A stretch of DNA of 64,000 bases from Ramlibacter ginsenosidimutans (GTDB lineage: Bacteria > Pseudomonadota > Gammaproteobacteria > Burkholderiales > Burkholderiaceae_C), in contig NZ_JAEPWM010000006.1 of assembly GCF_016654015.1 (NCBI RefSeq), forward strand, positions 124,001-188,000, given 5' to 3'. Position numbers and translations under genes: made by a program. Every line of letters begins with the position of its first letter. Position 1 is the stretch's first letter. Under the pieces are notes generated by a model. It was not told the DNA's origin. It saw nothing but the letters and a program-made list of their open reading frames with translations, and made no database searches. Below, piece by piece: positions 13,248 to 36,458 of the stretch.

Positions 13248-15392
13248 ATGGCCGAGCGATCGTTTGTCGAGGAAGTGAAGAAGCTGCGCCTCGGCGCCGG
13301 GGAGACCTTCCGTGGCGAAGGCATCCTCGCAGTCACCAAGGCGCTGCTCGAATCGGGCGTGGCCTACGTCGCAGGTTACCAGGGCGCGCCCATCTCGCAC
13401 CTGATGGACGTGCTGGCCGACGCGCAGGACATTCTCGCGGAGCAGGGCATCCGCTTCGAGAACAGCGCCAGCGAAGCGACCGCCGCCGCCACGCTCGCCG
13501 CTTCGGTGAACTACCCGCTGCGCGGCGCGGTCACCTTCAAGGCCACCGTCGGCACCAACGTCGCTTCCGACGCGCTGGCCAACCTGGCCTCCGGCGGCGT
13601 CACCGGCGGCGCGCTGGTGGTGGTCGGCGAAGACTACGGCGAGGGCTCCTCGATCATGCAGGAGCGCAGCCACGCCTTCGCGATGAAGTCGCAGATCTGG
13701 CTGCTCGATCCGCGGCCAACGCTCTCGTGCATCGTCCAGGCGGTGAAGCAGGGCTTCGAGCTGTCCGAGGCCAGCCACACGCCGGTGATGCTGCAGCTGC
13801 GCATCCGCGCCTGCCACGTGCACGGCGAATTCACCGCTTCCGACAACAAGCGCCCGTCCTTCACCATCGGCGAGGCGCTCGATGCGCCGCAGCGCGACGT
13901 GAGCCGCATCGTGCTGCCGCCGGCGAGCTTCGTGCACGAGCAGGAGAAGGTGCGCGAGCGCTGGCCCGCCGCGGTGAAGTTCATCGAGGAGCATGCACTC
14001 AACGAGTTCTTCGCGGAGGGGGCCGACGACATCGGCATCGTCGTGCAGGGCGGCAACTACAACACCACGCTGCGCGTGCTGGAGCGCCTGGGCTTCGCGG
14101 ACGTGTACGGCAACAGCCGCATCCCGCTGTACTGCATGAACGTGGCGTACCCGGTGATCGATTCCGAGGTGCTGCGCTTCTGCCGCGGCAAGCGCGCGGT
14201 GCTGATGGTGGAAGAGGGCCAGCCCAACTTCATCGAGCAGAACATCGCGGCCATCCTGCGCAATGCGCACGTCGACACCGCCCTGCACGGGAAGGACCTG
14301 CTGCCCGTCGCCGGCGAATACACGACGGCCGAGACGCTCAAGGGCGTGCGCGCCTTCCTGGAGCGCTACGGGCGGATGCAGCCCGAACCCGTGGTCGCCA
14401 AGCCGCCCAAGGTGATCCCGCTCAAGCCGCTGGCCGAGAGCGTGTCGGCGCGGCCGCCGGGCTTCTGCACGGGCTGCCCCGAGCGCCCGATCTTCACCGC
14501 GATGAAGCTGGTCGAGCGCGAGCTGGGCGAGCACCACGTCAGCGCCGACATCGGCTGCCACCTGTTCTCCATCCTGCCGCCCTTCAACCTCGGCAACACC
14601 ACGATGGGCTACGGCCTCGGCGCCGCGGGCGCGGCAGCGCTGAACACGCCCGGCGCAGGCCACAAGCGCGCGATCAGCGTCATGGGCGACGGCGGCTTCT
14701 GGCACAACGGCCTCACCAGCGGCGTCGCCAACGCGGTGTTCAACCGCAGCGACAACCTCACCATCGTCGTCGACAACAGCTACACCTCCGCCACCGGCGG
14801 GCAGGACATCCTGTCGTCCACCGCGGAGAACCGCTCGCGCAGCACCGGGCACGCGATCGAGCGCGCCGTGCGCGGCGTCGGCGTGAACTGGGTGCGCACG
14901 ATGAAGCGCACCTACGATGTCGCCGGCATGCGCGACGCGCTGCGCGAGGCGCTCACCACCAAGGAGCAGGGCCCCAAGGTGCTGATCGCGCAGTCCGAGT
15001 GCATGCTGAACAAGCAGCGCCGCGAAAAGCCGCTCGCCCGCAAGGCCGTCGCCGAGGGCAAGCGCGTGGTGCGCGAGCGCTTCGGCGTGGACTCCGACAC
15101 CTGCACCGGCGACCACTCCTGCATCCGGCTCTCGGGCTGCCCTTCGCTGTCGGTCAAGCCCAATCCGGATCCGCTGCGCAGCGACCCGGTCGCGACCGTG
15201 CTGGACTCCTGCGTCGGTTGCGGCCTGTGCGGCGAGGTGTCGCATGCGGCCGTGCTGTGTCCCTCCTTCTACAAGGCGCAGATCACGACCAACCCGACCC
15301 GCTGGGACCGCCTGCGCCAGCGCGTGAGCCGTGCCGTCATCGGGCGCCTGCAGCGCCGCGCGGCTGCGCGCCGCGAACGCTACGCCTTCTGA
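13248..15392 (+). CDS. Indolepyruvate ferredoxin oxidoreductase alpha subunit-like (IorA)
   Basis: This 714-residue thiamine-diphosphate enzyme subunit resembles IorA. The N-terminal half binds the pyrimidine end. A TPP domain contains GCPERPIF and GDGGFWHNGLTSG near residue 480. The C-terminus has ferredoxin-like cysteines: CTGDHSC...GCP near 620 and CVGCGLCGEVSHAAVLCP near 660. The enzymes oxidatively decarboxylate aryl 2-oxoacids to aryl-CoA. Here it is the first gene of the large catabolic operon, coupled to iorB. Given an isatin-hydrolase-like neighbour, isatinate (2-aminophenylglyoxylate) is an alternative to indolepyruvate; this is inference. Confidence 0.85.
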   Translation: MAERSFVEEVKKLRLGAGETFRGEGILAVTKALLESGVAYVAGYQGAPISHLMDVLADAQDILAEQGIRFENSASEATAAATLAASVNYPLRGAVTFKATVGTNVASDALANLASGGVTGGALVVVGEDYGEGSSIMQERSHAFAMKSQIWLLDPRPTLSCIVQAVKQGFELSEASHTPVMLQLRIRACHVHGEFTASDNKRPSFTIGEALDAPQRDVSRIVLPPASFVHEQEKVRERWPAAVKFIEEHALNEFFAEGADDIGIVVQGGNYNTTLRVLERLGFADVYGNSRIPLYCMNVAYPVIDSEVLRFCRGKRAVLMVEEGQPNFIEQNIAAILRNAHVDTALHGKDLLPVAGEYTTAETLKGVRAFLERYGRMQPEPVVAKPPKVIPLKPLAESVSARPPGFCTGCPERPIFTAMKLVERELGEHHVSADIGCHLFSILPPFNLGNTTMGYGLGAAGAAALNTPGAGHKRAISVMGDGGFWHNGLTSGVANAVFNRSDNLTIVVDNSYTSATGGQDILSSTAENRSRSTGHAIERAVRGVGVNWVRTMKRTYDVAGMRDALREALTTKEQGPKVLIAQSECMLNKQRREKPLARKAVAEGKRVVRERFGVDSDTCTGDHSCIRLSGCPSLSVKPNPDPLRSDPVATVLDSCVGCGLCGEVSHAAVLCPSFYKAQITTNPTRWDRLRQRVSRAVIGRLQRRAAARRERYAF

Positions 15393-15399
15393 GCCCGCG

Positions 15400-16923
15400 A
15401 TGAACAGCGTGCAGCCGATCAAGATCGCGATCCTCGCCATGGGCGGGGAGGGCGGCGGTGTCCTGGCCGACTGGATCGTGGACCTGGGCGAGTCCAACGG
15501 CTACATCGCCCAGACCACCTCGGTGCCCGGCGTCGCCCAGCGCACCGGCGCCACGATCTACTACGTGGAGATGTACCCGCGCGAGCAGGCCGAACGCGAT
15601 GGCGGCCATCCCGTGCTAGCGCTGATGCCCTTGCCCGGCGACGTCGACGTGGTGCTGGCGTCCGAGCTGATGGAAGCCGGTCGCGCCGTCCAGCGCGGGC
15701 TGGTGACGCCGGACCGCACGACCCTGGTCGCCTCCACGCACCGGGTCTATTCCATCGCCGAGAAGATCGCGCTGGGCGACGGCCGCGCGGACAGCAAGAA
15801 CCTTCTGGCCCACGCGCAATCGGCAGCGCGCCGCTTCGTGCGCTTCGACATGGCGCAGGTGGCCGAAGACAACGGCAGCGTCATCAGCGCCGTGCTGTTC
15901 GGCGCGCTGGCCGGCACGGGCGTGCTGCCCTTCAGCCGCGCGCAGTTCGAGTCCACGATCGAGCGCGGTGGCGTCGGCGTGAAGGCGAGCCTGCGCGCAT
16001 TCGAGGCCGGCTTCACCCAGGCCAATGCCCCGGCGGCGGCGGATGCCACCCCGGTGGCTGCGGCGCTGCGGCCCGCGGGCACGCCGCGCGACCCCGAAGT
16101 GCGCTCGCTGCTGGCCCGCATAGCGAAGGACTTCCCGCCTGCCGCCCAGCCCGTGCTGGTCGAAGGCGCGCGCCGCCTGGTCGACTACCAGGACCCGGAC
16201 TACGCCGGCCTCTACCTGGACCGGCTCGCGCGTATCCAGCAGCTGTCCGGCGGCGAAGTGCAGCTGCTGACGGAGACGGCCCGCCACCTCGCGCTCTGGA
16301 TGTCGTACGAGGACACCGTGCGCGTGGCCGAACTCAAGACGCGGGCCAGCCGCTTCGAGCGGGTGAGCAGCGAGGTGCACGTGCAGCAGGACCAGCTGCT
16401 GGACATCAACGAGTACATGCATCCGCGCCTGCAGGAGATCTGCGACACGCTGCCCGCGGGCCTGGGTCGCTGGCTCGCGTCCTCGGGCTGGCCGCGCCGG
16501 CTGGTGGAACGCGCCACGCGCAAGGGCCGCGTGGTCACCACCAGTTCGCTCGGCGGCTTCCTGCTGCTGTACACGCTGGCGGGCCTCAAGCGCTGGCGCC
16601 GCGGCAGCCTGCGCTTCCAGGCGGAGAACCAGCGCATCGAGACCTGGCTGGATCGCATCGCCGCCGCCGCTGCGCTCAACCCGCAGCTCGCCACCGAAGT
16701 CGCGCAGTGCCAGCGCCTGGTGAAAGGCTACGGCGACACGCACGAACGCGGCCTGCGCAACTACGAAACGCTGATGGACGCGGTGCAGCGGGCCGGCGCC
16801 CGGCTCGCGCCCGCGAGCCTGCGCGAACTGCGCGATGCGGCCCTCGCCGACGAGGGCGGCCAGCAACTGCGCGCCGCGCTGGAGCGCCTTTCCCTGCACG
16901 CGCCGCTCAAGCAGGCGGCCTGA
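15400..16923 (+). CDS. Indolepyruvate oxidoreductase beta subunit-like (IorB), long form
   Basis: Start is the ATG at 15400, seven bases after iorA. The first 200 or so residues are the pyruvate ferredoxin oxidoreductase gamma/IorB domain (KIAILAMGGEGGGVLADWIVD, VPGVAQRTGATIYY). The remaining 300 are a helical extension (DUF6537-like region) seen in long proteobacterial IorB proteins, giving 507 residues. It completes the 2-oxoacid oxidoreductase with IorA. The physiological electron acceptor is not encoded nearby. Confidence 0.84.
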   Translation: MNSVQPIKIAILAMGGEGGGVLADWIVDLGESNGYIAQTTSVPGVAQRTGATIYYVEMYPREQAERDGGHPVLALMPLPGDVDVVLASELMEAGRAVQRGLVTPDRTTLVASTHRVYSIAEKIALGDGRADSKNLLAHAQSAARRFVRFDMAQVAEDNGSVISAVLFGALAGTGVLPFSRAQFESTIERGGVGVKASLRAFEAGFTQANAPAAADATPVAAALRPAGTPRDPEVRSLLARIAKDFPPAAQPVLVEGARRLVDYQDPDYAGLYLDRLARIQQLSGGEVQLLTETARHLALWMSYEDTVRVAELKTRASRFERVSSEVHVQQDQLLDINEYMHPRLQEICDTLPAGLGRWLASSGWPRRLVERATRKGRVVTTSSLGGFLLLYTLAGLKRWRRGSLRFQAENQRIETWLDRIAAAAALNPQLATEVAQCQRLVKGYGDTHERGLRNYETLMDAVQRAGARLAPASLRELRDAALADEGGQQLRAALERLSLHAPLKQAA

Positions 16924-16948
16924 CCGGTTCAACGAGGAGCATGCGGCC

Positions 16949-18280
16949 ATGACGACATCGCGCTACCGCGGCAACCCCGAGGCCCTGAGGGCCCTCGTGC
17001 AGCCGGAACGCGTGCATCGCGACCTGTACATCAGCCAGGAAGTGTTCGAACTGGAGCAGGAGCACTTCTTCGCGAACACCTGGAACTACGTCGGCCACGA
17101 CAGCCAGGTCCAGAAGCCCGGCGACTACATCACCAACGAGATCGGCGGCCGGCCCCTCATCATCGTGCGCCACACCGATAACTCGGTGCGCGTGCTGATG
17201 AATCGCTGTGCGCACAAGGGCTCGCGGCTGGTGAGCGCGCCGGCAGGCAACACCGGCAAGTTCTTCCGCTGCCCCTACCACGCGTGGGCCTTCGACACCG
17301 ACGGCGCGCTGCGCGCGATCCCGCTGAAGAACGGCTACATCGGCACCAGCCTGAACGACTGCGAGAGCGGCCAGGGCCTCGTGCGCGTGCAGAACGTGCG
17401 CGTGTACCGCGGCTTCATCTTCGTGAAGATCAACGACGCGGGGCCGGATTTCGAGGAGTACTTCGGCGAGTCGCTCAGCTCGATCGACAACATGGCCGAC
17501 CGCTCGCCCGAAGGCGAGCTGGAGATTGCCGGCGGGTGCCTGCGCTTCGTGCACCAGTGCAACTGGAAGATGTTCATCGAGAACCTCAACGACACCATGC
17601 ACCCCATGGTGGCGCACGAGTCTTCCGCCGGCACCGCGAAGAAGATGTGGGCGGACAAGCCGGCCGACGCGCCCAAGCCCATGGCCATCGAGCAGTTCGT
17701 GCCCTTCATGTCTGACTACAAGTTCTTCGAGGACATGGGCGTGCGCGTCTACGACAACGGGCACAGCTTCTCGGGAGTGAACTTCAGCATCCACAGCAAG
17801 TACTCGGGCATCCCGGCGTACGAGGAGGCGATGATCGAGGCCTACGGCGAGGAGAAGGCGCACGCGATCCTCGGCCTCACGCGCCACAACACCGTGTACT
17901 ACCCGAACCTCACGATCAAGGGCGCCATCCAGGCGATCCGCGTGGTGAAGCCGATCGCCGCGGACAAGTGCCTCGTGGAGAGCTGGACCTTCCGCCTGAA
18001 GGGCGCGCCGCCGGAGCTGCTGCAGCGCACGACGATGTACAGCCGCCTGATCAACTCGCCGTTCTCGGTGGTCGGCCACGACGACCTGCAGGCCTACCGC
18101 GGCATCCAGGCCGGCCTGCACGCCAGCGGCAACGACTGGGTCAGCCTGCACCGCAACTTCCAGGAAAACGAGATCGGCAAGCGCGAGCTGACGGCCAACG
18201 GCACCAACGAGATCTCGATGCGCAACCAGTACCGCGCCTGGGCGAAGTACATGACGCTGACGATGGGGGGCGAGGCATGA
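16949..18280 (+). CDS. Rieske oxygenase large (alpha) subunit, first copy
   Basis: The 443-residue protein has the Rieske [2Fe-2S] ligands C87-x-H89 and C108-x2-H111, and the mononuclear iron ligands in ENLNDTMHPMVAHES (D215, H218, H223). Such subunits activate O2 for mono- or dihydroxylation of aromatic rings. The start at 16949 follows GAGGAG by 8-9 bases; an out-of-frame ATG at 16941 was not used. The small subunit overlaps by four bases. A close paralogue is at 26827. No reductase or ferredoxin gene is found in the window, so electrons must come from elsewhere. An indole-ring carboxylic acid or its CoA thioester is a plausible substrate. Confidence 0.92.
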   Translation: MTTSRYRGNPEALRALVQPERVHRDLYISQEVFELEQEHFFANTWNYVGHDSQVQKPGDYITNEIGGRPLIIVRHTDNSVRVLMNRCAHKGSRLVSAPAGNTGKFFRCPYHAWAFDTDGALRAIPLKNGYIGTSLNDCESGQGLVRVQNVRVYRGFIFVKINDAGPDFEEYFGESLSSIDNMADRSPEGELEIAGGCLRFVHQCNWKMFIENLNDTMHPMVAHESSAGTAKKMWADKPADAPKPMAIEQFVPFMSDYKFFEDMGVRVYDNGHSFSGVNFSIHSKYSGIPAYEEAMIEAYGEEKAHAILGLTRHNTVYYPNLTIKGAIQAIRVVKPIAADKCLVESWTFRLKGAPPELLQRTTMYSRLINSPFSVVGHDDLQAYRGIQAGLHASGNDWVSLHRNFQENEIGKRELTANGTNEISMRNQYRAWAKYMTLTMGGEA

Positions 18281-18783
18281 ACGCCGCACGGCCCACCGAA
18301 GGCGCGGGCCCGACCCGCCAGGACCTGATCGACTTCGTGGTGCGCGAAGCGCGCCTGCTCGATGCGAAACAGTACGAGGAGTGGAACCGCCTGTTCACCG
18401 ACGACGGCATGTACTGGGTGCCCCTGGTCCCAGACCAGGAGGATGGCGTGAACCACACCTCGCACCTGTACGAGGACAAGCTGCTGCGCGAGCTGCGCAT
18501 CGAGCGCCTGAAGAGCCCGCGCGCCTTCTCGCAGCAGCCTCCCAGTCGCAGCCATCACCTGCTGCAAACCCCTACGGTCGAAACTTTCGATCCGCCATCC
18601 AATCGCTACCTCGTGCGCACGGAATTCCACTACACCGAGTCGCAGGGCGATGAACTGCAGTTCTACGTGGGCCACTTCCTGCACCACCTTACCGTGCGCG
18701 ACGGTGTCCTGCGCATGACGCTCAAGCGCGTGAACCTGCTCAATCCCGACGCCGCGCTGCCCGCCGTGCAGTTGTTCATCTGA
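18277..18783 (+). CDS. Rieske oxygenase small (beta) subunit, first copy
   Basis: This 168-residue protein belongs to the ring-hydroxylating dioxygenase beta family (SnoaL-like cone fold): ARLLDAKQYEEWNRLFTDDGMYWVPL and the terminal LKRVNLLNPDAALPAVQLFI are typical. The subunit is structural and shapes the hexamer. Its ATG overlaps the alpha-subunit stop (ATGA). It is related to the beta subunit at 28143. Confidence 0.9.
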   Translation: MNAARPTEGAGPTRQDLIDFVVREARLLDAKQYEEWNRLFTDDGMYWVPLVPDQEDGVNHTSHLYEDKLLRELRIERLKSPRAFSQQPPSRSHHLLQTPTVETFDPPSNRYLVRTEFHYTESQGDELQFYVGHFLHHLTVRDGVLRMTLKRVNLLNPDAALPAVQLFI

Positions 18784-18788
18784 GGCCC

Positions 18789-20411
18789 ATGCACACGGTC
18801 CACCAGCGCTTCGCCACGACCGCCGCCCGCGCGTCGGCCGCGGAGTTCCTGTTCCTCGACGCCGTGACGGCGCAGGCCTACGGCATTCCCGCGCAGCCGG
18901 TGTCCTGGGGCGCGGCGGCGCAGGAGATCGAACGCCTGCGCGCGCTGTACGCGGCGGCCGGCTACGGACACGGCCATCGCGTCGGCCTGCTGCTGGAGAA
19001 CCGGCCGGCCTTCCTGTTCCACTGGTTCGCGCTGAATGCGCTGGGCGTGAGCGTGGTGCCGATGAACGCGGAGATGCGCTCGGCGGAACTGGAATACCTG
19101 ATCGGCCACAGCGAGATCGCGCTGGCGGTCACGCTGCCGCAGCGCTTGGCCGACCTGCGCAACGCCGCGCGCATTGCCGGTGTGCGCATGGCCGCGTGGG
19201 ATCCCGACGGCGATGCCGTCCTGCCGCGCGCTCCTGCACCCGCGCCGCTCGAGGGCACGGCACCAGGACTGGCGAGCGAGTGCGCGCTGCTCTACACGTC
19301 GGGCACCACCGGACGCCCGAAGGGCTGCCGTCTCTCGAACGAATACTTCCTGCGGGCCGGCGAGTGGTATGCAGGGCTGGACGGCGTCTGTTCGGTCCGC
19401 CGCGACGCGGAACGGATCATCACGCCGCTGCCGCTGAACCACGTGAATGCCATGGCGTTCTCCACCATGGTGGTCGTCACGGCGGGCGGCTGCCTCGTGC
19501 AGCTCGATCGCTTCCATCCCAGGAGCTGGTGGCAAAGCGTGCGCGACAGCCGCGCGACCATCGTGCACTACCTGGGCGTCATGCCCGCGATGCTGCTGAC
19601 CGCGCCGGCTTCGCCGCAGGACAGTGCGCACCAGGTCCGTTGGGGCTTCGGCGCCGGCGTGGACAGGAAGAACCACGCGGTGTTCGAGGAGCGCTTCGGC
19701 TTCCCGCTCGTGGAGGCGTGGGCGATGACGGAGACCGGCGCCTCCGCCTGCATCATGGCCAACCACGAGCCGCGCCACGTCGGCGCGAGCTGCTTCGGCA
19801 AGCCCGAGGCCTTCGTCGAGGTGCGGCTGGTCGACGAGCAGGGCCAGGACGTGCCGGACGACGTTCCGGGCGAGCTGCTGGTGCGCTCCAGCGGCCCGGA
19901 TCCGCGGCGCTACTTCTTCAGCGAGTACCTGAAGGACCCGGACGCCACCGCCCAAGCCTGGGCGGATGGCTGGTTCCACACCGGCGACATGGTGAAGCGC
20001 GACGCCGCCGGCCACCTGTACTTCATCGACCGCAAGAAGAACGTGATCCGCCGCAGCGGCGAGAACATCTCCGCGGTCGAAGTGGAGAGCGTGCTCAACC
20101 AGCACCCCGCGGTGAAGAGCTCCGCGGTCGCCGCCACGCCGGACCCAGTGCGTGGCGACGAGGTGCTGGCCTGCATCATCCCGCGCGACCCCGTGCCCCC
20201 GGAGCAGCGCGAGGCGCTGGCGGCGAGCATCGTGCAGCACGCGCTGGCGCAGCTCGCCTACTACAAGGCCCCCGGCTATGTCGCCTTCGTCGATGAGGTG
20301 CCGCTCACGCCCTCGCAGAAGATCCAGCGCGGGCAGTTGCGCGAGCTGGCGCGCTCCTTGCCTGGGGCTGCGTGTTGCATCGACACGCGCACCATGAAGA
20401 AACGCCAATGA
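18789..20411 (+). CDS. Acyl-CoA ligase (AMP-binding family)
   Basis: This 540-residue ligase shows YTSGTTGRPKGC near residue 168, AWAMTETGAS, TGDMVKRDAAGHLYFIDRKKN, and a C-terminal SQKIQRGQL with the catalytic lysine. It lies between the Rieske beta subunit (5-base gap) and the thiolase-fold gene (4-base overlap), so it is part of the catabolic operon. It is a candidate for making the CoA thioester of the pathway acid, for example indole-3-acetyl-CoA, or of a downstream aromatic acid. It resembles crotonobetaine/carnitine-CoA ligase types, whose annotation is often nonspecific. Confidence 0.88.
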   Translation: MHTVHQRFATTAARASAAEFLFLDAVTAQAYGIPAQPVSWGAAAQEIERLRALYAAAGYGHGHRVGLLLENRPAFLFHWFALNALGVSVVPMNAEMRSAELEYLIGHSEIALAVTLPQRLADLRNAARIAGVRMAAWDPDGDAVLPRAPAPAPLEGTAPGLASECALLYTSGTTGRPKGCRLSNEYFLRAGEWYAGLDGVCSVRRDAERIITPLPLNHVNAMAFSTMVVVTAGGCLVQLDRFHPRSWWQSVRDSRATIVHYLGVMPAMLLTAPASPQDSAHQVRWGFGAGVDRKNHAVFEERFGFPLVEAWAMTETGASACIMANHEPRHVGASCFGKPEAFVEVRLVDEQGQDVPDDVPGELLVRSSGPDPRRYFFSEYLKDPDATAQAWADGWFHTGDMVKRDAAGHLYFIDRKKNVIRRSGENISAVEVESVLNQHPAVKSSAVAATPDPVRGDEVLACIIPRDPVPPEQREALAASIVQHALAQLAYYKAPGYVAFVDEVPLTPSQKIQRGQLRELARSLPGAACCIDTRTMKKRQ

Positions 20412-21580
20412 CCAGACAGCGCATGTCGTATGAAGGCGTCGCGGTCGCCGTCCCCGTGACGGTGCCGTACGTGCGCTACTCCACGCACAACGCGCACTGG
20501 TTCATCGGCCAGGCGCTGCAGGCGCTGGTGCAGGAATCCGGGATCGCGAAAGAGCAGATCGACGGCCTCACGATCAGCAGCTTCTCGCTGTCGCCCGACA
20601 CGGCGGTCGGCGTGACGCAGCACATGGGCATGTCGCCGCGCTGGCTGGACCACATTCCCACCGGCGGCGCTTCCGGCGTGATGTCGCTGCGGCGGGCGGC
20701 CCGTGCCGTGCAGGCCGGCGACGCGGACATCGTCGCCTGCGTCGCGGCGGACACGAACCACGTCGACTCCTTCCGCCTGACGCTGGGCTCCTTCAGCAAC
20801 TTCGCGCGCGACGCCAGCTATCCCTACGGCTCCGGCGGCCCGAACTCGATCTTCGCGATGATCACCGCGAACTACATGCGCACCTACGGGGCGCAGCGCG
20901 AGGACTTCGGCCGCATCGCGGTGGCCCAGCGCACCAACGCACTGCGCAACCCGAACGCGCTGTTCAAGAAGCCGCTGACACTCGACGAGTACATGGCGGC
21001 CCGGCCGATCTCCGACCCGATCCACCTGTTCGACTGCGTCATGCCTTGCGCCGGCGCCGAGGCCTTCCTCGTCATGCGCGAGGAGAAGGCCCGTGAACTG
21101 GGCTTGCCGCACGTGCTGGTGCGCGGCGCCATCGAGCGGCACAACGCCTTCTCGGACGACCCGATCATGGTGCGCGGCGGCTGGCGCATGGACCGCGACG
21201 ACCTGTACGCGCAGGCCGGCGCGCGGCCGGACGACGTCGACTTCATCCAGACCTACGACGACTATCCGGTGATCGTGATGCTGCAGTTCGAGGACCTGGG
21301 CTTCTGCGACAAGGGCGAAGGCCCGGCCTTCGTGCGCGAGCGCAGCACCACCTTCGACGGCAGCTTTCCCAACAACACCAGTGGCGGCCAGTTGTCCGTG
21401 GGACAGGCCGGTGCGGCGGGAGGTTTCCTCGGCATGACGGAAGCGATCCGGCAACTCACGGGGCAGGCCGGCGACCGCGCCGTGAAGGACGCGCAACTGG
21501 GTCTCGTCACCGGCTTCGGCATGGTCACGTACGACCGCTGCCTGTGCACGGGCGCCGTGCTGCTCGGGAGAGCCTCATGA
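20408..21580 (+). CDS. Thiolase-fold lipid-transfer-type protein, probable retro-aldolase
   Basis: The 390-residue protein has the thiolase fold but not the thiolase active site. The nucleophile Cys position reads GGASGVMSL, and the C-terminal GHPxG motif reads VGQAGAAGG. A TYDDYP segment stands where thiolases have the HDAF-type motif. The same losses and key tyrosines mark Ltp2-type aldolases of steroid side-chain degradation, which work with a DUF35 partner; the next gene encodes a DUF35 domain. Expected reaction: cleavage of a tertiary 3-hydroxyacyl-CoA to a ketone plus acetyl- or propionyl-CoA. The family fold is secure and the reaction is inferred. Confidence 0.82.
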   Translation: MTRQRMSYEGVAVAVPVTVPYVRYSTHNAHWFIGQALQALVQESGIAKEQIDGLTISSFSLSPDTAVGVTQHMGMSPRWLDHIPTGGASGVMSLRRAARAVQAGDADIVACVAADTNHVDSFRLTLGSFSNFARDASYPYGSGGPNSIFAMITANYMRTYGAQREDFGRIAVAQRTNALRNPNALFKKPLTLDEYMAARPISDPIHLFDCVMPCAGAEAFLVMREEKARELGLPHVLVRGAIERHNAFSDDPIMVRGGWRMDRDDLYAQAGARPDDVDFIQTYDDYPVIVMLQFEDLGFCDKGEGPAFVRERSTTFDGSFPNNTSGGQLSVGQAGAAGGFLGMTEAIRQLTGQAGDRAVKDAQLGLVTGFGMVTYDRCLCTGAVLLGRAS

Positions 21581-26815: not shown

Positions 26816-26826
26816 GGAGCATGGCG

Positions 26827-28146: not shown

Positions 28147-28604
28147 CTCCGCAGGAATTCGTGCTGCACGAGGCGCGCCTCGTCGACGAGCAGCGCTTCG
28201 ACGAGTGGCTGGAGCTCTTTGCCGAGGACGGCCGCTACTGGGTGCCGCTGGCCGGCGCCGCGCAGCAGGAGGGCGCCGCGTACAACTCGCTCGCCGACGA
28301 GGACCGCCTGCTGCTGTCGTTGCGCGTGCAGCGCCTGAAGAATCCGCGTGCGCATTCGCAGCACCCGAAGAGCCGCTGCCAGCACGTGCTGCAGCCGCCC
28401 CAGGTGCTGCACTCCGACGATGCGGGCTGCGAATTGCGCACGCCCTTCCTCTACATCGAATCCCGCGGCGCGCACAGCGTGCAGCTCGCGGGTTCGGCCA
28501 CGCACCGCCTCGTGCGGGCGGGCGACGCATGGCGCATCCGCATGAAGCGGGTCGACCTGCTGGACGCGGGCGAGCCCTTGCCCGCGATCCAGCTCTTTCC
28601 CTGA
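28143..28604 (+). CDS. Rieske oxygenase small (beta) subunit, second copy
   Basis: The 153-residue protein matches the ring-hydroxylating dioxygenase beta family: VLHEARLVDEQRFDEWLELF, FAEDGRYWVPL and the terminal MKRVDLLDAGEPLPAIQLF. It is shorter at the N-terminus than the first copy. It overlaps the alpha gene (ATGA) and would form a hetero-oligomer with it. Confidence 0.9.
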   Translation: MTPQEFVLHEARLVDEQRFDEWLELFAEDGRYWVPLAGAAQQEGAAYNSLADEDRLLLSLRVQRLKNPRAHSQHPKSRCQHVLQPPQVLHSDDAGCELRTPFLYIESRGAHSVQLAGSATHRLVRAGDAWRIRMKRVDLLDAGEPLPAIQLFP

Positions 28605-28634
28605 GCAGCCGATCCACTCCAGGAGACCTCCAAG

Positions 28635-29795
28635 ATGAACGCTCTCTCCCGCCGCGTACTGCTGGCCGCCTCGCTCGCGCTGGGCCTCGCAGGCGCCGCC
28701 ACGGCCGCCGACCTGAAGGTCGGCCTCAGCGTGTCGCTGTCCGGCCCCAACTCCTCGCTGGGCGTGCCTTATGCCAACGGAATGAAGGCGGCCGTCGCCT
28801 ACAAGCCGGAGATCGCCGGCCACAAGGTGCAGCTGATCGTGCTGGACGACAACTCCGACCCGACCACCGCCGGCCGCAACGCGCGCAAGCTGATCGAGGA
28901 AGACAAGGTAGACGTGATCATGGGCACCTCCGGCGTGCCGGCGGCGATCGCCATGGCGCAGGTGGCGGCCGACACGGGCACGCCCTTCATCGGCCTGACG
29001 CCGATCGCGCTGAAGGGCAAGGAGCTGGACTGGACCGTCACCGTGGCCCAGCCCACGCAGCTGATGGTCGACGCCGTCGTGGAGCGCATGAAGAAGGCCA
29101 ACGTGAAGACGGTGGCCTACATCGGTTTCTCCGACGCCTGGGGCGACCTGGTCTACAACGCGCTGATGGAGGCGACCGCGAAGGCCGGCATCAAGGTCGT
29201 GACCAATGAGCGTTACGCACGGGCCGACCAGTCGGTGACCGGGCAGGTGCTCAAGATCATCGCAACGCATCCGGATGCGGTGATGACCGGAGGCGCCGGC
29301 ACGCCGGGCGCGCTGCCCTACATCGCGCTGTCCGAGCGCGGCTACAAGGGTCCGGTCTACGGCCAGCACGGGCTGATCAACGAGGCCTTCGTGCGCGTCG
29401 GCGGCACCGCCGCGAACGGCACGGAGGTGCCGACCGGCCCGATCATCGTGGCGGAGCAGCTGCCGGACAGCTATCCCACCAAGAAGGTCAGCATGGAGTT
29501 CCGCAACGTCTTCCAGAAGGTGAACGGCGCGCCGACCACCGACGCGTTCTCCGCGTACTCCTTCGACGGCTACCTGGTGTTCGCCGATGCGGCCGCGCGC
29601 GCACTCGCCGGCGGCAAGGCGGAACCCGGCACGCCGGCGTTCCGGACGGCGCTGCGCGACGCGATCATGTCGACCAAGGAAGTGGTGGGCGTGCATGGCG
29701 TCTACAACTTCAAGAAGGGCGACCTGTATGGCGTGGACCAACGGGCTCGCGTGATCGTGAAGCTCGAGAACGGGCACTGGAAACTGGTGAATTGA
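28635..29795 (+). CDS. ABC transporter substrate-binding protein, paralogue 3 of 3
   Basis: This 386-residue periplasmic binding protein has a signal peptide ending ATAA^DLKVGL and an AGGAGA ribosome-binding site 8 bases before the ATG. It is the closest binding-protein gene to the permease genes. Three paralogues for one importer suggest several related ligands, or different affinity ranges. Its 3' end enters the second copy of the 92-bp repeat. Confidence 0.92.
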   Translation: MNALSRRVLLAASLALGLAGAATAADLKVGLSVSLSGPNSSLGVPYANGMKAAVAYKPEIAGHKVQLIVLDDNSDPTTAGRNARKLIEEDKVDVIMGTSGVPAAIAMAQVAADTGTPFIGLTPIALKGKELDWTVTVAQPTQLMVDAVVERMKKANVKTVAYIGFSDAWGDLVYNALMEATAKAGIKVVTNERYARADQSVTGQVLKIIATHPDAVMTGGAGTPGALPYIALSERGYKGPVYGQHGLINEAFVRVGGTAANGTEVPTGPIIVAEQLPDSYPTKKVSMEFRNVFQKVNGAPTTDAFSAYSFDGYLVFADAAARALAGGKAEPGTPAFRTALRDAIMSTKEVVGVHGVYNFKKGDLYGVDQRARVIVKLENGHWKLVN

Positions 29796-29936: not shown

Positions 29937-30992
29937 ATGACCTGGGACGTAGCTCTCATCCTCGGCATCGACGGCCTGGCCAACGGGGCGGTGTACCTGT
30001 TGGCGGGGCTGGGCCTGGTGCTCATCTTCTCGGTGACGCGGGTGGTGTTCGTCCCGTTCGGCGACGTCGCGGCCTTCTCGGCGCTGAGCCTCGCGGCCTT
30101 CGAGCAGGGCCGCCGTCCCGCCACCATCTCGCTGGTCCTCACGCTCGCAGCGCTCGCGGTGATTGCCGAAGTCGTCTCGCTCGTGCGGCGCGGCGAGGCT
30201 GCGCGCATCCCGCGGGCCATCCTGGGCTGGGGCTTGCTGCCGGCCTTGCCCTGCGCGCTCGCGTGGGCCGTGGCCGGCCATGAGGTGCCGCACGCGCTGT
30301 TCATCGTCACGGCGATCCTGCTGGTGGTGCCGATCACGCCGCTGGTGGCGCGGCTCGCGCTGCAACCGATCGCGGACGCATCGGTCCTGGTGCTGCTGAT
30401 CGCCTCGCTGGCCTTGCACTTCCTGCTCTCGGGCCTCGGGCTGCTGTTCTTCGGGCCCGAAGGTTCGCGCACCGCGCCGCTCGCCGAGGGCGGGCTCACG
30501 CTGCCCGGCGGCTTCAACGTCAGCGGGCAGGTGCTGCTGATGCTGGCGGCGGCCGTCGTGCTGAGCGGCCTGTTCTTCCTGGCGTTCGAGCGCACCGCGA
30601 TCGGCAAGGCCTTGCGCGCCACGGCCGTGAACCGCGTCGGTGCGCGCCTGGTCGGCATCCGGCCGGCGCGCACGGCGCTGCTCGCGTACACCTTCTCGTC
30701 GCTGCTCGCCGGCCTGATCGGCGTGCTGGTCGCGCCCGTGACGACCATGTATTACGACTCGGGCTTCCTGATCGGCCTCAAGGCCTTCGTCGCGGCCATC
30801 ATCGGCGGCCTGGTGAGCTATCCGCTGACCGCGCTGGGTGCGATCGCCGTGGGCATCGTCGAGAGCTTCGGCTCCTTCTGGAGCGGCGCCCTCAAGGACG
30901 TGATCGTGTTCAGCCTGCTGATTCCCGTGCTGATGCTGCGCTCCGCGATGACCCGCCATCCGGAGGAAGAGGTGGAGGAGATCGACCAATGA
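29937..30992 (+). CDS. Branched-chain amino acid-type ABC transporter permease (LivH-like)
   Basis: This 351-residue inner-membrane permease of the LivH family is longer than the usual 290. It has a LivH-type start (ILGIDGLANGAVYLLAGLGLVLIFSVTRVVF), about nine hydrophobic segments and the conserved AAIIGGLVSYPLTALGAIAVGIVES segment near residue 290. The C-terminus is acidic ([11 protein letters not shown]). It overlaps the next gene by four bases. It forms the pore with the LivM half of the fused protein. Confidence 0.9.
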   Translation: MTWDVALILGIDGLANGAVYLLAGLGLVLIFSVTRVVFVPFGDVAAFSALSLAAFEQGRRPATISLVLTLAALAVIAEVVSLVRRGEAARIPRAILGWGLLPALPCALAWAVAGHEVPHALFIVTAILLVVPITPLVARLALQPIADASVLVLLIASLALHFLLSGLGLLFFGPEGSRTAPLAEGGLTLPGGFNVSGQVLLMLAAAVVLSGLFFLAFERTAIGKALRATAVNRVGARLVGIRPARTALLAYTFSSLLAGLIGVLVAPVTTMYYDSGFLIGLKAFVAAIIGGLVSYPLTALGAIAVGIVESFGSFWSGALKDVIVFSLLIPVLMLRSAMTRHPEEEVEEIDQ

Positions 30993-32818
30993 AAGGTCCC
31001 CGCGCCCTCCTGCTCGCCGCGGTCGTCGCCGTCGTGGCGCTCGCACCCGCGGTACTGGGCAATTTCGGTGTGAGCCTGCTGAACGACATCGGCATCGCCG
31101 CGCTCGTCGTCCTGGGGTTGGTGCTGCTGACCGGCGTCGGCGGCGCCACCTCCTTCGGGCAGGCCGCCTTCGTCGGCATCGCCGCGTATGCCACGGCGTG
31201 GCTCACGACCACGCAACACTATTCGCCCTGGGTGGGCCTGCTGTTCGCGCTGCTGCTCACGGTCGTCGCGGCGCTCGCGATCGGCCTGCTCACGCTGCGC
31301 CTGGGCGGCCACTTCCTGCCGCTGTCCACCATCGCGTGGGGCCTGTCCATCGCCATGCTGTTCGGCAACGTGGAAGCGCTGGGAAGCCACACCGGGATCT
31401 CCAAGATCCCGCCGGTGAGCATCGCGGGGATCTCGCTGGAGGATCCGCGCGCGATGTACTACCTGATCTGGGTCGTGGTGGGCCTCGGGGTCGTGTTCGC
31501 CTACAACGTCCTCGAGTCGCGGCCGGGCCGCGCCATCCGCAGCCTGCGCGGTGGCGGCATCCTGCTGGCGAGCGTCGGTGCCGATGCCTTCCGCGTGCGG
31601 CTCACGCTGTTCATCGTGGCGGCGTTCCTGGCGGGCGTGGCCGGCTGGCTGTACGCGCACACCAACCGCTTCGTGAGCCCGTCGCCCTTCGACGTGCGCG
31701 CGAGCATCGAGTACCTGCTGATGGCGGTCGCGGGCGGGCTCGGGCAGTTGAGCGGCGCGGTCGTCGGTGCGGCCGTGGTGCTGGTGATGAAGAACTCGCT
31801 GCAGGACGTGCTGCCGCTGGTGACGCAACGCGGTGGCGAGCTGGAAGCGGTCGGTTTCGCGCTGCTGTTCATCCTGCTGCTGCACTACGCGCGCGGCGGG
31901 CTCATGGGTTTCGTCACGCGCTGGACGCGTGGCCGCTTCGCGCCGGCCAAGGCGAGTGCGCCGCCGGCGGGCGCGCCGCTGCCGCGCCGGCCCTTGCCCG
32001 CACGCGGCACCCGCCTGCTGGCCGTGCGCAATGCGGTGAAGCGCTTCGGCGGCCTGGTCGCGGTGAACGACGTGAGCTTCGAGGTCGCGGCCGGCGAGAT
32101 CGTCGGCCTGATCGGGCCGAACGGGGCGGGCAAGTCCACGATGTTCAACCTGCTCACGGGCACCGCGCCCATGACCAGCGGCAGCGTGGAGTTCCTCGGC
32201 GAGAACGTGTCGGGCCTGCAGCAGCGCGTGATCGCCAACCGCGGCATGGCGCGCACATTCCAGCACGTGAAGCTGCGCCCGCACATGACCCTGCTGGACA
32301 ACGTCGCGCTGGGCGCCCATGGCCGCACGCACGCCGGCCTGCTGGCCGCCGGGCTGCGCCTGGACCGGCGCGAGGAAGCGCAGATCCTCGCCGAAGCCTG
32401 GCACCAGCTGGAACGCATCGGCCTGGCCGATCGCGCCAACGAGCTGGCCGGCAGCCTGCCCCTGGGCACGCAGCGCATCCTGGAGATCGCCCGCGCGCTC
32501 GCCGCCGACCCGGTGCTGCTGGTGCTGGACGAACCAGCCGCGGGCCTGCGCCGCAAGGAGAAGCAGGAGCTCGGCGAGCTGCTGCGCAAGCTGCGCGCCG
32601 AAGGCGTGACCATCCTGATCGTCGAACACGACATGGACTTCGTGATGAAACTGGTGGACCGGCTGGTGGTGATGAACTTCGGCTCCAAGCTCACCGAAGG
32701 TGCGCCCGCCGCCGTGCGTGCGAACCCCGATGTGCAGGCGGCCTACCTGGGTGGCGCGGTGGCTGCGCCCGTGCCGCCCTCCGGGGAGCCGCGCAAGGTG
32801 GCGGGAGCCGCAGCATGA
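30989..32818 (+). CDS. Fused ABC permease-ATPase (LivM-LivG)
   Basis: One 609-residue reading frame holds both parts. Residues 1 to about 320 form a LivM permease ([39 protein letters not shown]). A proline/alanine-rich linker follows. From about residue 342 there is a LivG ATPase with Walker [10 protein letters not shown] near 376, a LivG-style signature ([15 protein letters not shown]) and Walker [11 protein letters not shown] near 510. The fusion fixes 1:1 stoichiometry of permease and ATPase. Such fusions are known in this family in proteobacteria. It ends at an ATGA junction with the first 63-nt mini-cistron. Confidence 0.92.
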
Positions 32819-32877
32819 GCCGCCGCGCCGCCCCGAACCCGATGGCGCTGCGCGTTGCGCGGAGGAGCGTGTCGTGA
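32815..32877 (+). repeat. 63-nt coupling mini-cistron, copy 1
   Basis: A 20-codon reading frame ([20 protein letters not shown]) starts at the ATGA overlapping the livM-livG stop and ends in the TGA inside GTGA, which starts livF. It contains CGGAGG placed 8 bases before that GTG. Copies of the same length and layout lie at 35193-35255 and, on the minus strand, 46638-46700. Its likely job is translational coupling; a functional peptide cannot be excluded. Confidence 0.65.
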
Positions 32878-33605
32878 GCACCCCCATGCTGGAAGTGCAG
32901 GACCTGCACGTTTCCTACGGCCAGGTCGATGCGGTGCGCGGCGTCACCCTGACGCTCGAGCCGGGACAGATCGTGTCGGTCATCGGCCCCAACGGCGCGG
33001 GCAAGACGACGCTGCTGGCCGCGGCCATGGGCCTGCTGCCGTCCAAGGGCGGCCTGCGCTTCGAAGGCCAGGACCTGCACGGACTCGACGTGGAAGCGCG
33101 CGTCGAACGCGGCCTGTGCCTGGTGCCGGAGAAGCGCGAGCTGTTCGGTGAACTCACGGTGCAGGACAACCTGATGCTGGGCGGCTTTCCCCGCAAGCTG
33201 CGGGGCGCCGCACTGAAGCGCCAGATGGATTTCGTGTGCGACCGCTTCCCGCGCCTGGGTGAGCGGCGTTCGCAACGCGCCGACACGCTCTCCGGCGGCG
33301 AGCGCCAGATGCTGGCGCTGGGCCGCGCCCTGATGTCCTCGCCGCGCCTGCTGATGCTCGACGAGCCCAGCCTCGGACTCGCGCCGCTGATCGTGCAGGA
33401 GATCCTGGCCTTCGTGCGCGGCTTGCGGGACGAAGGCGTCTCGATCCTGCTGGTGGAGCAGAACGCGCGCGCCGCCCTGGACAGCTCCGACCACGGCTAC
33501 GTGCTGGAGACCGGCGAGATCGCGCTGAGCGGCGCCTCGGCGGAGCTCGCGGTGGACCCGCGCGTGCAGGCGACCTACCTGGGCGGTGCCACCGATGAAG
33601 ACTGA
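32874..33605 (+). CDS. livF: Branched-chain amino acid-type ABC transporter ATP-binding protein LivF
   Basis: Start is the GTG at 32874 ([16 protein letters not shown]), preceded by GGAGG in the mini-cistron. The 243-residue ATPase has Walker [10 protein letters not shown], signature [15 protein letters not shown] and Walker [14 protein letters not shown]. With the LivG half of the fused protein it powers the importer of the catabolic locus. Its stop overlaps the next ligase gene by 11 bases. Confidence 0.92.
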
Positions 33606-35196
33606 GTGGCTGCTGGCGCCGGCGCAGCGCACCTTGCCCGCGCTGCTGCAGCGGCAGGCCCGCCTGTTCGGTGCGCGGCCCTTCCTCGCCGTGCCTGGCG
33701 CCGAGTGGACGCACAGCGACGCCGCAGACGTTGCGGCGCGGCGCGCCGGCGCGCTCAGTGCCGCCGGCGTTACGCAGGGCGACCGGGTGGCCGTCATGTG
33801 CTCCAACCGCGCCGAGTTCCTGGAAACGGTGCTCGCTTGCGGCTGGATGGGCGCGGCCTCGGTGCCCGTGAACAGCGCTTGCATGGGACCGCAGATCCAG
33901 TACCTGCTGGCCGACAGCGGTGCGCGCCTGCTGGTGATCGAGGCCGCGTTCCTCGAACGCCTGCAGACGGCCGACCTCGCTGCGAGCGCGCTGGAGTCGA
34001 TCTGGGTGGTCGGCGGCGATGCGTCCGCGTGGCCTGCGACCATCGGGCCCGCGCGCGTCCACGCATGGCCTGCGGCCGGCGCCGCGCTGCCGCCCGCGGC
34101 CGTGCAGCCTTCCGATACCTTCGCGATCCTCTACACCTCGGGCACGACGGGTCCGTCCAAGGGCGTGCTGTGTCCGCATGCGCAGTACTACTGGTGGGGC
34201 GTGAACTCGGCCGACGTGCTGGGTGTCCGTGAAGACGACGTGCTGTGCACGACGCTGCCGCTGTTCCACATCAACGCCCTGAATACGTTCGCGCAGGCGG
34301 CCATTGCCGGTTGCCGCGTGCACTTCCTGGAGCGCTTCTCCGCATCGGGCTTCTGGCCCGCGATGGGCCGCACTGGTGCGACGGTGGTGTACCTGCTGGG
34401 TGCGATGGTGCCGATCCTGCTCGCGCAGCCCGCCGGTCCCGGCGAGCGCGACCACCATGTCCGCATCGGACTGGGCCCCGGCGTGCCCGAAGCGGCGGGG
34501 GCGGCGTTCCGCGAACGCACGGGCGTGCTGCTGCTGGAAGGCTACGGCTCGACCGAGACCAACTTCGTGATCGCCACCGCGCCGGACTCGCCGCGCCGCG
34601 GCGTCATGGGTTGGCTGCGGCCCGGCTTCGAGGCCCGGGTGGTGGACGATGCGGACAACCCGCTGCCGGCCGGCGAGGCCGGCGAACTGGTGCTGCGCGC
34701 GAGCGAAGCCTTCGCTTTCGCCAGCGGCTACTTCGGCCAGCCCGAAAAGACGGTGGAGGCCTGGCGCAATCTCTGGTTCCACACCGGGGATCGCGTCGTG
34801 CGCGATGCCGATGGCGCGTTCCGCTTCGTCGATCGCATCAAGGACGCGATCCGCCGGCGCGGCGAGAACATTTCCTCGTGGGAAGTGGAGCAGGTGCTGA
34901 TGGCGCACCCGGCGGTCGCGTCGGTGGCCGTCGTCCCGGTCCGCTCGGAACTGGCCGAGGACGAGGTGTTGGCGGCCGTGGTGCTGCGGGAGGGCGAGCG
35001 CGTCACGCCCGCGGAGCTCGCCACCTTCTGCACGGCGCGCCTGCCTCGCTTCGCCGTGCCGCGCTTCATAGCCCTGCTGCCCGAACTGCCCCGCACCGAG
35101 AACGGCAAGGTGCAGAAATACAAGCTGCGCGAACGCGGCGTCCCGGCCGGCTGCTGGGACCGCAGCGCCGGCGGAACGGAGAGGAGAGCGCCATGA
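33595..35196 (+). CDS. Acyl-CoA ligase (AMP-binding family)
   Basis: This 533-residue ligase shows [12 protein letters not shown] near residue 178, [31 protein letters not shown] and a C-terminal [10 protein letters not shown] with the catalytic lysine. An in-frame GTG at 33586 is possible but the ATG at 33595 is kept. It is the second CoA ligase of the locus, coupled to livF by overlap and to the SDR by a mini-cistron. It may activate the imported acid at the membrane exit of the transporter; substrate not assigned. Confidence 0.87.
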
Positions 35197-35255
35197 GCCG
35201 ACGGGCCGCCCCAAGGCGAATCCCGCAGTCCGCAGGACGGAGGGTCGTCAAGTGA
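35193..35255 (+). repeat. 63-nt coupling mini-cistron, copy 2
   Basis: The reading frame [20 protein letters not shown] begins at the ATGA overlapping the ligase stop. It ends at the TGA within GTGA, where the SDR gene starts. CGGAGG sits 8 bases before that GTG. It is very similar to the minus-strand copy at 46638-46700 and shares length, ends and layout with the copy at 32815. Confidence 0.65.
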
Positions 35256-36022
35256 CCCAGGACCTGCAGGGCCGCCATGCCCTCGTGACCGGCGCCGCCC
35301 GCGGCATCGGCGCGGCGATCGCCCGCATGCTGGTGCAGCAGGGCGCGCGCGTCACCCTGCTGGGGCGGCGGCGCGAGACGCTGGCGGCGCTGGCCGCGGA
35401 ACTGCCGGGCGAGCACGGCTTCGTGGTCGCCGATGTCGCCGTGGAGGCGCAGGTGCAAGAGGCCTTCGCGCAAGCGCGTGCGGCACGCGGGCCGGTCACC
35501 ATCCTGGTGAACAACGCGGGGCAGGCGCACAGCGCGCCCTTCGTGAAGACTTCGCTGGCGCTGTGGCAGCAGATGCTGGACGTTAACCTCACCGGCACCT
35601 TCGTGTGCACGCAGGCGGCGCTGCCCGACATGCTGGGCGCCGGCGGCGGTCGCATCGTGAACATCGCCAGCACGGCGGCGCAAAAGGGCTATGCCTACGT
35701 CAGCGCCTATGTCGCGGCCAAGCATGGCGTGCTGGGACTCACGCGTTCGCTGGCGCTGGAACTGGCGCGCAAGGGCATCACGGTCAATGCCGTGTGCCCC
35801 GGCTACACCGAGACGGACATCCTGCGCGAGAGCATCGCCAACGTGGTCGCGAAAACCGGCCGCACCGAGGCGCAGGCCCGCGCGGAGTTCGCCGCCGGCA
35901 ATCCGCAGCAGCGCATCGTGCAGCCGGAGGAAGTGGCGGACGCGGTGCGCTGGTTGTGCGGCGAGGGCGCATCGTCGATCACCGGGCAGGCGATCTCGGT
36001 GTCGGGCGGAGAGGTGATGTGA
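35252..36022 (+). CDS. Short-chain dehydrogenase/reductase (SDR)
   Basis: From GTG 35252 the protein has 256 residues and a complete classical SDR active site: TGAARGIG near residue 13, [13 protein letters not shown] with the Ser, and YVAAKHG with Tyr and Lys, then VCPGYTETD. It resembles 3-hydroxyacyl dehydrogenases used in aromatic acid degradation. Its start depends on the ribosome-binding site in the mini-cistron just upstream. Confidence 0.88.
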
Positions 36023-36044
36023 GCGCCGCGCGGGAGGCCCTCCG

Positions 36045-36458
36045 GTGAGCGCGTTCCGCGTGCCGCGGCGCATCCGCTTTTCCGACTGCGATCCGGCGGG
36101 CATCGTCTTCTACCCGCAGTACTTCGTCATGTTCAACGGCGTGCTGGAGGACTGGGTCGACGGTCCGCTGGGCATCGGCTTCGCCGACCTGGTGAGCCGC
36201 CGCCGGATCGGGCTGCCCACCGTCAGGCTCGAGGCGGACTTCCGCGCCATCAGCCGCTTCGGCGACGACGTCGTCATGTCGCTCGAGGTCGAGCGCCTCG
36301 GGGGCCGCTCCCTCACGCTGGCGCTGCGCTGCGAATCCGGCGCCGGCGAACTGCGCATGGCGATGCGGCAGGTGGTGGTCACGACCTCGCTGGAGACGCA
36401 CCAGGCCGTCGACGTGCCGGCCGATCTGCGCGCCGCGGTCCAGAGCTTGGCCGGCTGA
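36045..36458 (+). CDS. Acyl-CoA thioesterase (4-hydroxybenzoyl-CoA thioesterase family)
   Basis: This 137-residue hot-dog-fold protein contains RIRFSDCDPAGIVFYPQYF, the 4HBT signature with the catalytic Asp near residue 17. The start is GTG 36045 with GGGAGG about 7 bases upstream. It is the last gene of the catabolic operon. It would hydrolyse an aryl-CoA to the free acid; anthraniloyl-CoA is a candidate if the IorAB step makes it. Confidence 0.88.
   Translation: MSAFRVPRRIRFSDCDPAGIVFYPQYFVMFNGVLEDWVDGPLGIGFADLVSRRRIGLPTVRLEADFRAISRFGDDVVMSLEVERLGGRSLTLALRCESGAGELRMAMRQVVVTTSLETHQAVDVPADLRAAVQSLAG

Follow-up and report, generated by a model that had tools for sequence, protein, structure and literature searches.

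We analysed a 64,000-nt stretch of the Ramlibacter ginsenosidimutans genome (contig NZ_JAEPWM010000006.1, positions 124,001–188,000; hereafter the window), in which a block of genes on the plus strand, at 13,248–36,458, resembles loci for degradation of the auxin indole-3-acetate (IAA). The genome comprises 5.33 Mb in 26 contigs, and the G+C content of the window is 70%. The block runs exactly from the first nucleotide of an IorA-type gene to the last of a 4HBT thioesterase gene, and its genes are arranged head to tail, with 16 of the 19 junctions being overlaps or gaps shorter than 60 nt. A first-pass annotation had listed for this operon-like block Rieske oxygenases, CoA ligases, a thiolase-fold protein next to a DUF35 domain, a cyclase-family isatin hydrolase, an IorAB-type oxidoreductase, a thioesterase and an ABC importer; Pfam located every one of these parts within it (Table 1).

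Comparison of sequence and gene order with characterized systems revealed that the locus is a member of the already described iad auxin-degradation family (Variovorax type), not a new system, in agreement with the auxin assignment made at first pass. In the PDB, IadD scored 832 bits against both 7yls and 9o71, which PMC12633357 (a preprint of October 2025) names as the structure of IadDE, while the next entry reached 145 bits. The solute-binding protein at 24,367 scored 683 bits against 7ylt, which probably represents the IAA-binding IadK2 of PMC10374108, and the MarR regulator of the window was nearest to MarR73, with 7kki and 7kfo as best PDB matches; 7KFO is the regulator of V. paradoxus CL14 according to PMC11630574. 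A scan of named genomes recovered at least 80 loci, many in Variovorax and others in Xenophilus, Pseudacidovorax, Comamonas, Ottowia, Castellaniella and Aromatoleum. The gene order of the window is the usual Variovorax order, A-B-D-E-F-G-H-I-J-K-K-D2-E2-K3-L-MN, and since many other named genomes of Variovorax and its relatives repeat it, the arrangement is not a matter of chance; the second Rieske pair and the additional binding proteins thus belong to the standard set. Identity to most Variovorax loci was 78–83% for IadD and 79–86% for IadE, and several of the closest named relatives of IadG were Ramlibacter proteins (87–89%). The genes iadA and iadB (iotA/iorB), described in PMC9613470 as markers exclusive to iad-like loci, are present in the window, and the IadA clade was found outside iad loci too.

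From these genes we propose, with a probability of roughly 0.75, a pathway that would run from free IAA through CoA thioesters to anthraniloyl-CoA. IadDE would oxygenate free IAA and, together with IadJ, give dioxindole-3-acetate (DOAA), as published for V. paradoxus, and IadF would convert DOAA to DOAA-CoA, a tertiary beta-hydroxyacyl-CoA. IadG, bound to the DUF35 part of IadH, would then split DOAA-CoA by a retro-aldol reaction into isatin and acetyl-CoA, with Tyr283 as the base on the 3-hydroxyl and Asp285 as the presumed acid for the enolate. Isatin would be converted to isatinate by IadI, and IadAB, judging from gene linkage, would decarboxylate isatinate oxidatively onto CoA to give anthraniloyl-CoA, CO2 and reduced ferredoxin. 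Finally, 2-aminobenzoyl-CoA monooxygenase/reductase (ACMR), encoded with a beta-oxidation set, would dearomatize anthraniloyl-CoA. The first-pass annotation thus held up in part: the iad locus, the retro-aldol step, the isatin hydrolase and the action of IorAB on isatinate were retained, whereas its oxygenation of IAA-CoA was not, and its ending by thioester hydrolysis was weakened.

IadI is, by full-length homology, an isatin hydrolase, as had been suggested (377 bits to the isatin hydrolase 5nmp), and retains HTGTHFDAP in 78/78 aligned rows, including HxxxHxD, which we take to be the isatin hydrolase metal motif. To place IadAB, 250 genomes were drawn from the family of the window's organism, with IadA counted at E 1e-100 and at least 60% identity and isatin hydrolase at E 1e-60. 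IadA occurred in 25 of 25 genomes with isatin hydrolase and in 5 of the 225 others (Fisher 9e-30, a value that ignores relatedness), and 9 of those 25 genomes lack iadG. Twelve IadA genes lay outside an iad locus; isatin hydrolase was found within 5 kb of nine of them and on a different contig for the other three (G375, with IadA and IadG on different contigs, was left out of this adjacency count). In a tree of 40 sequences, IadA proteins from iad and non-iad settings grouped together in a clade of 30 that excluded the common paralogue (support 100/99). In G202 and G274–G278, which include two Comamonas and one Ottowia, iadAB is not beside iadD, and IadA adjoins an isatin hydrolase gene elsewhere. 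This linkage and clade structure, together with the ACMR neighbourhood described below, support the earlier proposal that IorAB converts isatinate to anthraniloyl-CoA, and we consider isatinate the most likely substrate of IadAB.

Three observations weigh against this assignment. One genome (G120; loci L131, L132 and L035) carries iadG and two IadA copies with no isatin hydrolase match at E 1e-40, the five family genomes mentioned above contain IadA without isatin hydrolase, and a nine-gene set, iadC-K2, restores anthranilate in V. paradoxus without iadAB (PMC12633357), so that IadAB is not essential for anthranilate there. Separately, the isatin hydrolase–IadA–IadB set is followed by further genes in two Comamonas loci, and in L125 (7476–18,280; Comamonas) it lies near a styrene-monooxygenase-type oxygenase, assigned by Pfam, and an amine oxidase. 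The styrene-monooxygenase family includes indole oxygenases, and this gene set could be a route from indole to isatin.

Anthraniloyl-CoA is the probable product of IadAB, and ACMR its probable sink. ACMR was recognized as a protein above the cut-off of NCBIfam NF006101, in which a flavin adenine dinucleotide (FAD) monooxygenase is fused to an old yellow enzyme (OYE)-type domain; NCBI names this family bifunctional salicylyl-CoA 5-hydroxylase/oxidoreductase, and we take 2-aminobenzoyl-CoA monooxygenase/reductase to have this architecture. In three genomes without iadG (L162, L163 and L164), iadB, a thioesterase gene and ACMR follow iadA consecutively on one strand, iadA and iadB being separated by a transporter-like frame in L163 and by 1.4 kb in L164. 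ACMR also stands beside iad or isatin genes in L161 (A. evansii KB740), L148 (G456), L151 (G330), L149 (G482), L147 (G429), L138 (Allofranklinella) and L129 (G202). In the family draw, ACMR was present in 16/16 iadG genomes and in 123/234 others (p 6e-5, Fisher, ignoring relatedness). Among the named loci, counted for 49 of the at least 80, it was present in 46 of 49 genomes, the misses being two metagenome-assembled genomes and V. gossypii; at least five of these genomes were also in the 250-genome draw, since ACMR coordinates in G278, G552, G567, G543 and G558 match those in G429, G475, G460, G331 and G406, and the two counts overlap. Of 30 genomes, 7 had ACMR no more than 20 kb from IadA (0.27 expected) and 5 had it no more than 5 kb away. 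In the genome of the window it is located at C23:115727–118033, about 6 kb upstream of the window, followed 3' by hydratase, two acyl-CoA dehydrogenase, thiolase and ligase-like genes. This association must be read with some caution, because the 20 kb limit was chosen after the coordinates had been seen, and because ACMR is common in the family (139/250) and the genomes are related.

Members of the ACMR groups were 58–70% identical to the short-chain dehydrogenase/reductase (SDR) of the window at 35,252 and 35–70% identical to its thioesterase; by this recurrence, the distal SDR and thioesterase appear to belong to the ACMR module, and perhaps the distal ligase does as well. Aromatoleum evansii KB740, known as an anaerobic IAA degrader, also has an iad locus (L161:3461–18571), in which relatives of iadD, iadE, iadF and iadG are divergent from one of the two ACMR copies of this genome.

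An alternative ending, and the one favored at first pass, is that the 4HBT protein normally hydrolyses anthraniloyl-CoA and that the free anthranilate so formed is released or degraded. The 4HBT gene closes the block and follows iadB elsewhere, and anthranilic acid was detected in V. paradoxus cultures (PMC9613470); however, the same thioesterase gene directly precedes ACMR in L162–L164, where hydrolysis of the ACMR substrate would be futile, and ACMR is encoded close to the window. We regard hydrolysis as an unlikely normal exit, and free anthranilate probably arises from it as a side exit or overflow. Another alternative is that isatinate is decarboxylated without CoA to 2-aminobenzaldehyde, which a host enzyme would oxidize to anthranilate, leaving IadAB dispensable. 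Consistent with this, C7H7NO and C8H7NO3 were strong only in strains over-expressing iadC-K2, a set without iadAB, and anthranilate was still obtained (PMC12633357); these compounds may, however, pile up just because iadAB is missing from such strains, and retention of IadA at 60% identity or more in all 16 iadG genomes of the family draw argues against dispensability. A CoA-free route looks doubtful to us, and the formation of anthraniloyl-CoA for use by ACMR is preferred.

The retro-aldol step proposed at first pass, a CoA-dependent cleavage by a thiolase-fold/DUF35 pair, is well supported for IadG by sequence, gene linkage and chemistry. We looked in IadG for the catalytic Cys and His of SCP2-type thiolases and ketothiolases and found neither: in 85/85 IadG rows the nucleophile position is Gly (Gly87 in the window) and the thiolase HD motif lacks its His, confirming the lack of both residues that had been remarked on earlier. 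Tyr283, Asp285, Gln328 and Gln333 were present in all 85 rows, and Tyr-Asp-Asp-Tyr was invariant where the steroid aldolase Sal has Tyr-Asp-Cys-Tyr, although conservation of the letters concerned is partly a product of selection in the 80 of 84 loci (L033–L116) that were fetched by peptide patterns including YDDYPV or DCVMPC. YDDY was also present in the four loci found without a pattern (L033–L036) and in 0/25 paralogues, which carry YD[C/S/A/H]. The acids of the known aldolases, Cys in Sal and the second Tyr in Ltp2, were not found in IadG, which has Asp285 and Gln333 at those positions; Asp285, going by its place in the alignment, probably protonates the acetyl-CoA enolate. A structural model of IadG (predicted TM-score 0.84) returned the Sal–DUF35 (9myr) and Ltp2–DUF35 (6ok1) aldolases as the first two Foldseek entries, but fold scores gave no separation of aldolases from SCP2-type thiolases, a point against the aldolase reading. 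The partner gene iadH overlaps iadG by 4 nt, and by formula DOAA equals isatin plus acetic acid, a redox-neutral relationship. A 48% identical relative of IadG that has YDDYP is encoded at L036:714–2296, flanked by a CoA-transferase III gene on one side and a lone DUF35 gene on the other, and may be a related aldolase of another pathway.

IadH combines the DUF35 part, whose four zinc Cys are kept in 83/83 rows, with an SDR part in which the catalytic position, in 82 rows, is Phe in 65, Tyr in 11, Trp in 4, Ala in 1 and Glu in 1, so that Tyr is missing in 71/82; the first Gly of the cofactor motif is replaced by Asp in 81/82. Among Variovorax, Phe takes the place of the catalytic Tyr in 24/24 rows. 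L035 was left out of this SDR tally, since its aligned piece consists of a DUF35-only gene and the next gene: in this locus, from G120, iadG shares 4 nt with a gene for a 150-aa DUF35 protein that has no SDR part. Similarly, Pfam finds DUF35 and no SDR in L034, and the DUF35 gene beside the IadG relative in L036 stands alone. We propose that IadH is the aldolase partner and that its SDR half would be, in most relatives, a relic and not a working dehydrogenase; against this, the 11 rows that keep Tyr leave room for some surviving activity.

These assignments differ from the published ones (PMC12633357), which make IadG a ketothiolase and IadH an alcohol dehydrogenase; acting with IadF, the two would strip off the acetyl side chain in a reductive reaction that yields C8H7NO2, dioxindole. 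That proposal comes from deletion and over-expression metabolomics in V. paradoxus CL014, and the detection of C8H7NO2, which has two H more than isatin and accumulates without iadI, speaks for it and against a retro-aldol product. A ketothiolase is, however, difficult to reconcile with the missing Cys and His of IadG, or with DOAA itself, whose beta-carbon bears a tertiary alcohol that cannot be oxidized to a beta-ketone, and the Variovorax IadH proteins lack the Tyr expected of a dehydrogenase. Any carbonyl reductase could make C8H7NO2, that is, isatin plus 2 H, from isatin, which would explain the compound equally well, and the loss of anthranilate on iadH deletion (PMC12633357) would follow from the loss of the aldolase partner. 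We consider the reductive route improbable. Neither "aldol", "iadA" nor "iadB" occurs in the available main text of PMC12633357, nor "aldol" in that of PMC10374108, and our search of the open-licence literature, as far as available, found no paper assigning IadG as an aldolase or linking isatin or auxin to IorAB or 2-aminobenzoyl-CoA; as far as this literature shows, the retro-aldol step is not in print. It is very improbable that IadAB is instead an indolepyruvate:ferredoxin oxidoreductase feeding indole-acetyl-CoA or IAA into the pathway, since, although IadB exceeds the cut-off of a family named after that enzyme and IadA matches NCBIfam IOR_alpha, far under its cut-off (288 of 651 bits), the nine genomes without iadG have IadA-type subunits with isatin hydrolase and not with auxin genes, and the indolepyruvate enzyme may instead be represented by the separate clade of IorA-like paralogues.

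The claim that IAA-CoA is the oxygenase substrate is contradicted by published work. IadD and IadE, with IadC, transform IAA itself (PMC10374108), and in V. paradoxus the IadJ step yields C10H9NO4, DOAA, which builds up on loss of iadF, iadG, iadH or iadI (PMC12633357); because the deletion of the ligase gene iadF accumulates this compound, CoA ligation comes after oxygenation. IadJ is an intact SDR, with the catalytic Tyr and Lys and all three Gly kept in 74/74 rows. In Comamonas, Ottowia and other loci the iadF position is taken by ligases other than IadF, and the second CoA ligase of the window belongs to a group next to these. A point absent from the first-pass annotation is that the reductase gene iadC is missing here: no match was found in the window, and the gap between iadB and iadD, where iadC sits in most named loci, is 25 nt. 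With IadC recognized by position only, iadB and iadD adjoin without it in 11 of the 60 loci having both genes. Three proteins 43–44% identical to IadC are encoded on other contigs of the genome, and iadC has been published as dispensable for IAA degradation in CL014.

Table 1 Features of the iad locus in the window
Feature	Position (strand)	Basis or remark
MarR regulator, IadR/MarR73-like	8638..9123 (-)	Pfam MarR; best PDB matches 7kki 198 bits, 7kfo 197 bits
iadA, IorA-type thiamine pyrophosphate (TPP) + ferredoxin-domain subunit	13248..15392 (+)	Pfam TPP_enzyme_C; proposed isatinate:ferredoxin oxidoreductase alpha
iadB, IorB-type POR + DUF6537 subunit	15400..16923 (+)	NF006179 above cut-off
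iadD, Rieske oxygenase alpha	16949..18280 (+)	Predicted IAA substrate; 832 bits to 9o71 and 7yls
iadE, Rieske oxygenase beta	18277..18783 (+)	Pfam Ring_hydroxyl_B
iadF, AMP-forming CoA ligase	18789..20411 (+)	Proposed DOAA-CoA ligase; Pfam and published deletion phenotype
iadG, thiolase-fold protein	20408..21580 (+)	Proposed retro-aldolase; Gly87, Tyr283-Asp284-Asp285-Tyr286
iadH, DUF35 zinc ribbon/OB + degenerate SDR	21577..22830 (+)	Proposed aldolase partner; Pfam zf-ChsH2 + OB_ChsH2_C + adh_short
iadI, predicted cyclase-family isatin hydrolase	22830..23627 (+)	377 bits to 5nmp
iadJ, intact SDR	23624..24352 (+)	Published dehydrogenase forming DOAA (role from PMC12633357)
iadK2-like solute-binding protein	24367..25518 (+)	683 bits to 7ylt
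Second solute-binding protein	25643..26815 (+)	Pfam Peripla_BP_6
iadD2, second Rieske alpha	26821..28146 (+)	574 bits to 9o71
iadE2, second Rieske beta	28143..28604 (+)	Pfam
Third solute-binding protein	28635..29795 (+)	Pfam
ABC importer permease	29937..30992 (+)	Pfam
ABC importer permease-ATPase fusion	30989..32818 (+)	Pfam
ABC importer ATPase	32886..33605 (+)	Pfam
Second CoA ligase	33595..35196 (+)	Relative directly 5' of ACMR in L149
SDR of putative ACMR module	35252..36022 (+)	Copies 58-70% identical beside ACMR in L148, L138, L161, L129
4HBT thioesterase of putative IadAB/ACMR module	36045..36458 (+)	Copies 60-70% identical between iadB and ACMR in L162, L163, L164

The second Rieske pair (26,821–28,604) lies among the binding-protein genes and recurs in most of the Variovorax loci fetched. 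Upstream of iadA, the region 9241–13,059 contains octopine-dehydrogenase-like, 3-hydroxyacyl-CoA dehydrogenase, alpha/beta hydrolase and zinc alcohol dehydrogenase genes, the last two of which also precede iadA in many Variovorax loci, and 3' of the operon, on the same strand, lies a gene for a hybrid histidine kinase that carries receiver and Hpt domains (36,560–38,602).

Beyond the individual steps, we lean towards the view that the second half of the iad pathway runs entirely on CoA thioesters, with IadG a new Tyr-Asp type of DUF35 aldolase and IadAB a new ATP-free isatinate:ferredoxin oxidoreductase feeding ACMR, and that isatin hydrolase, IadAB and ACMR form a portable isatin module that also occurs without auxin genes. 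The data bearing on the CoA-thioester outcome and on the link to ACMR go beyond the first-pass annotation. If correct, aerobic auxin and indole catabolism would be joined to the 2-aminobenzoyl-CoA pathway, and DUF35 aldolases would reach beyond steroids. According to PMC12633357, root growth is restored when iad bacteria degrade auxin, and this trait is being engineered into inoculants. With IadG and IadH wrongly assigned and IadAB left without a role, acetyl-CoA, isatin and anthraniloyl-CoA would be missing from the pathway balance, and a complete cassette should, on the pathway proposed here, carry iadAB and ACMR to avoid release of anthranilate or isatin.

Among known systems, the closest is the iad locus of Variovorax paradoxus CL14/CL014 (PMC9613470, PMC10374108, PMC12633357), which has in common with the window its gene content and order, MarR73-like regulator, second Rieske pair and importer, whereas the window lacks iadC between iadB and iadD, carries distal ligase, SDR and thioesterase genes common to ACMR groups, and has the ACMR set 6 kb upstream. 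The steroid side-chain aldolases Sal–Shy(DUF35) and Ltp2–ChsH2(DUF35) (9myr, 6ok1; PMC12329534) likewise have a thiolase fold without nucleophilic Cys, a base Tyr of YDxx and a DUF35 partner, which in the window is encoded next door. IadG differs from Sal in having Asp for the acid Cys and from Ltp2 in having Gln333 for the second Tyr; its partner is fused to a degenerate SDR instead of a hydratase domain, and its expected substrate is an oxindole and not a steroid. IadI belongs to the family of the isatin hydrolases 5nmp and 5nna (PMC6117287) over nearly its full length. The metal-ligand motif is kept, and no functionally relevant difference was seen. In the aerobic ACMR pathway as described, anthranilate enters by being ligated to CoA, whereas here the thioester would come via IadAB without ATP. 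As in that pathway of Aromatoleum/Azoarcus evansii (named in PMC6221969), the genome of the window encodes an FAD monooxygenase fused to an OYE-type domain, accompanied by genes for a hydratase, acyl-CoA dehydrogenase and thiolase. The anaerobic iaa pathway of Aromatoleum (named in PMC9613470) leads to the same proposed CoA end product, 2-aminobenzoyl-CoA, and is set apart, by its description, by a different, anaerobic gene set.

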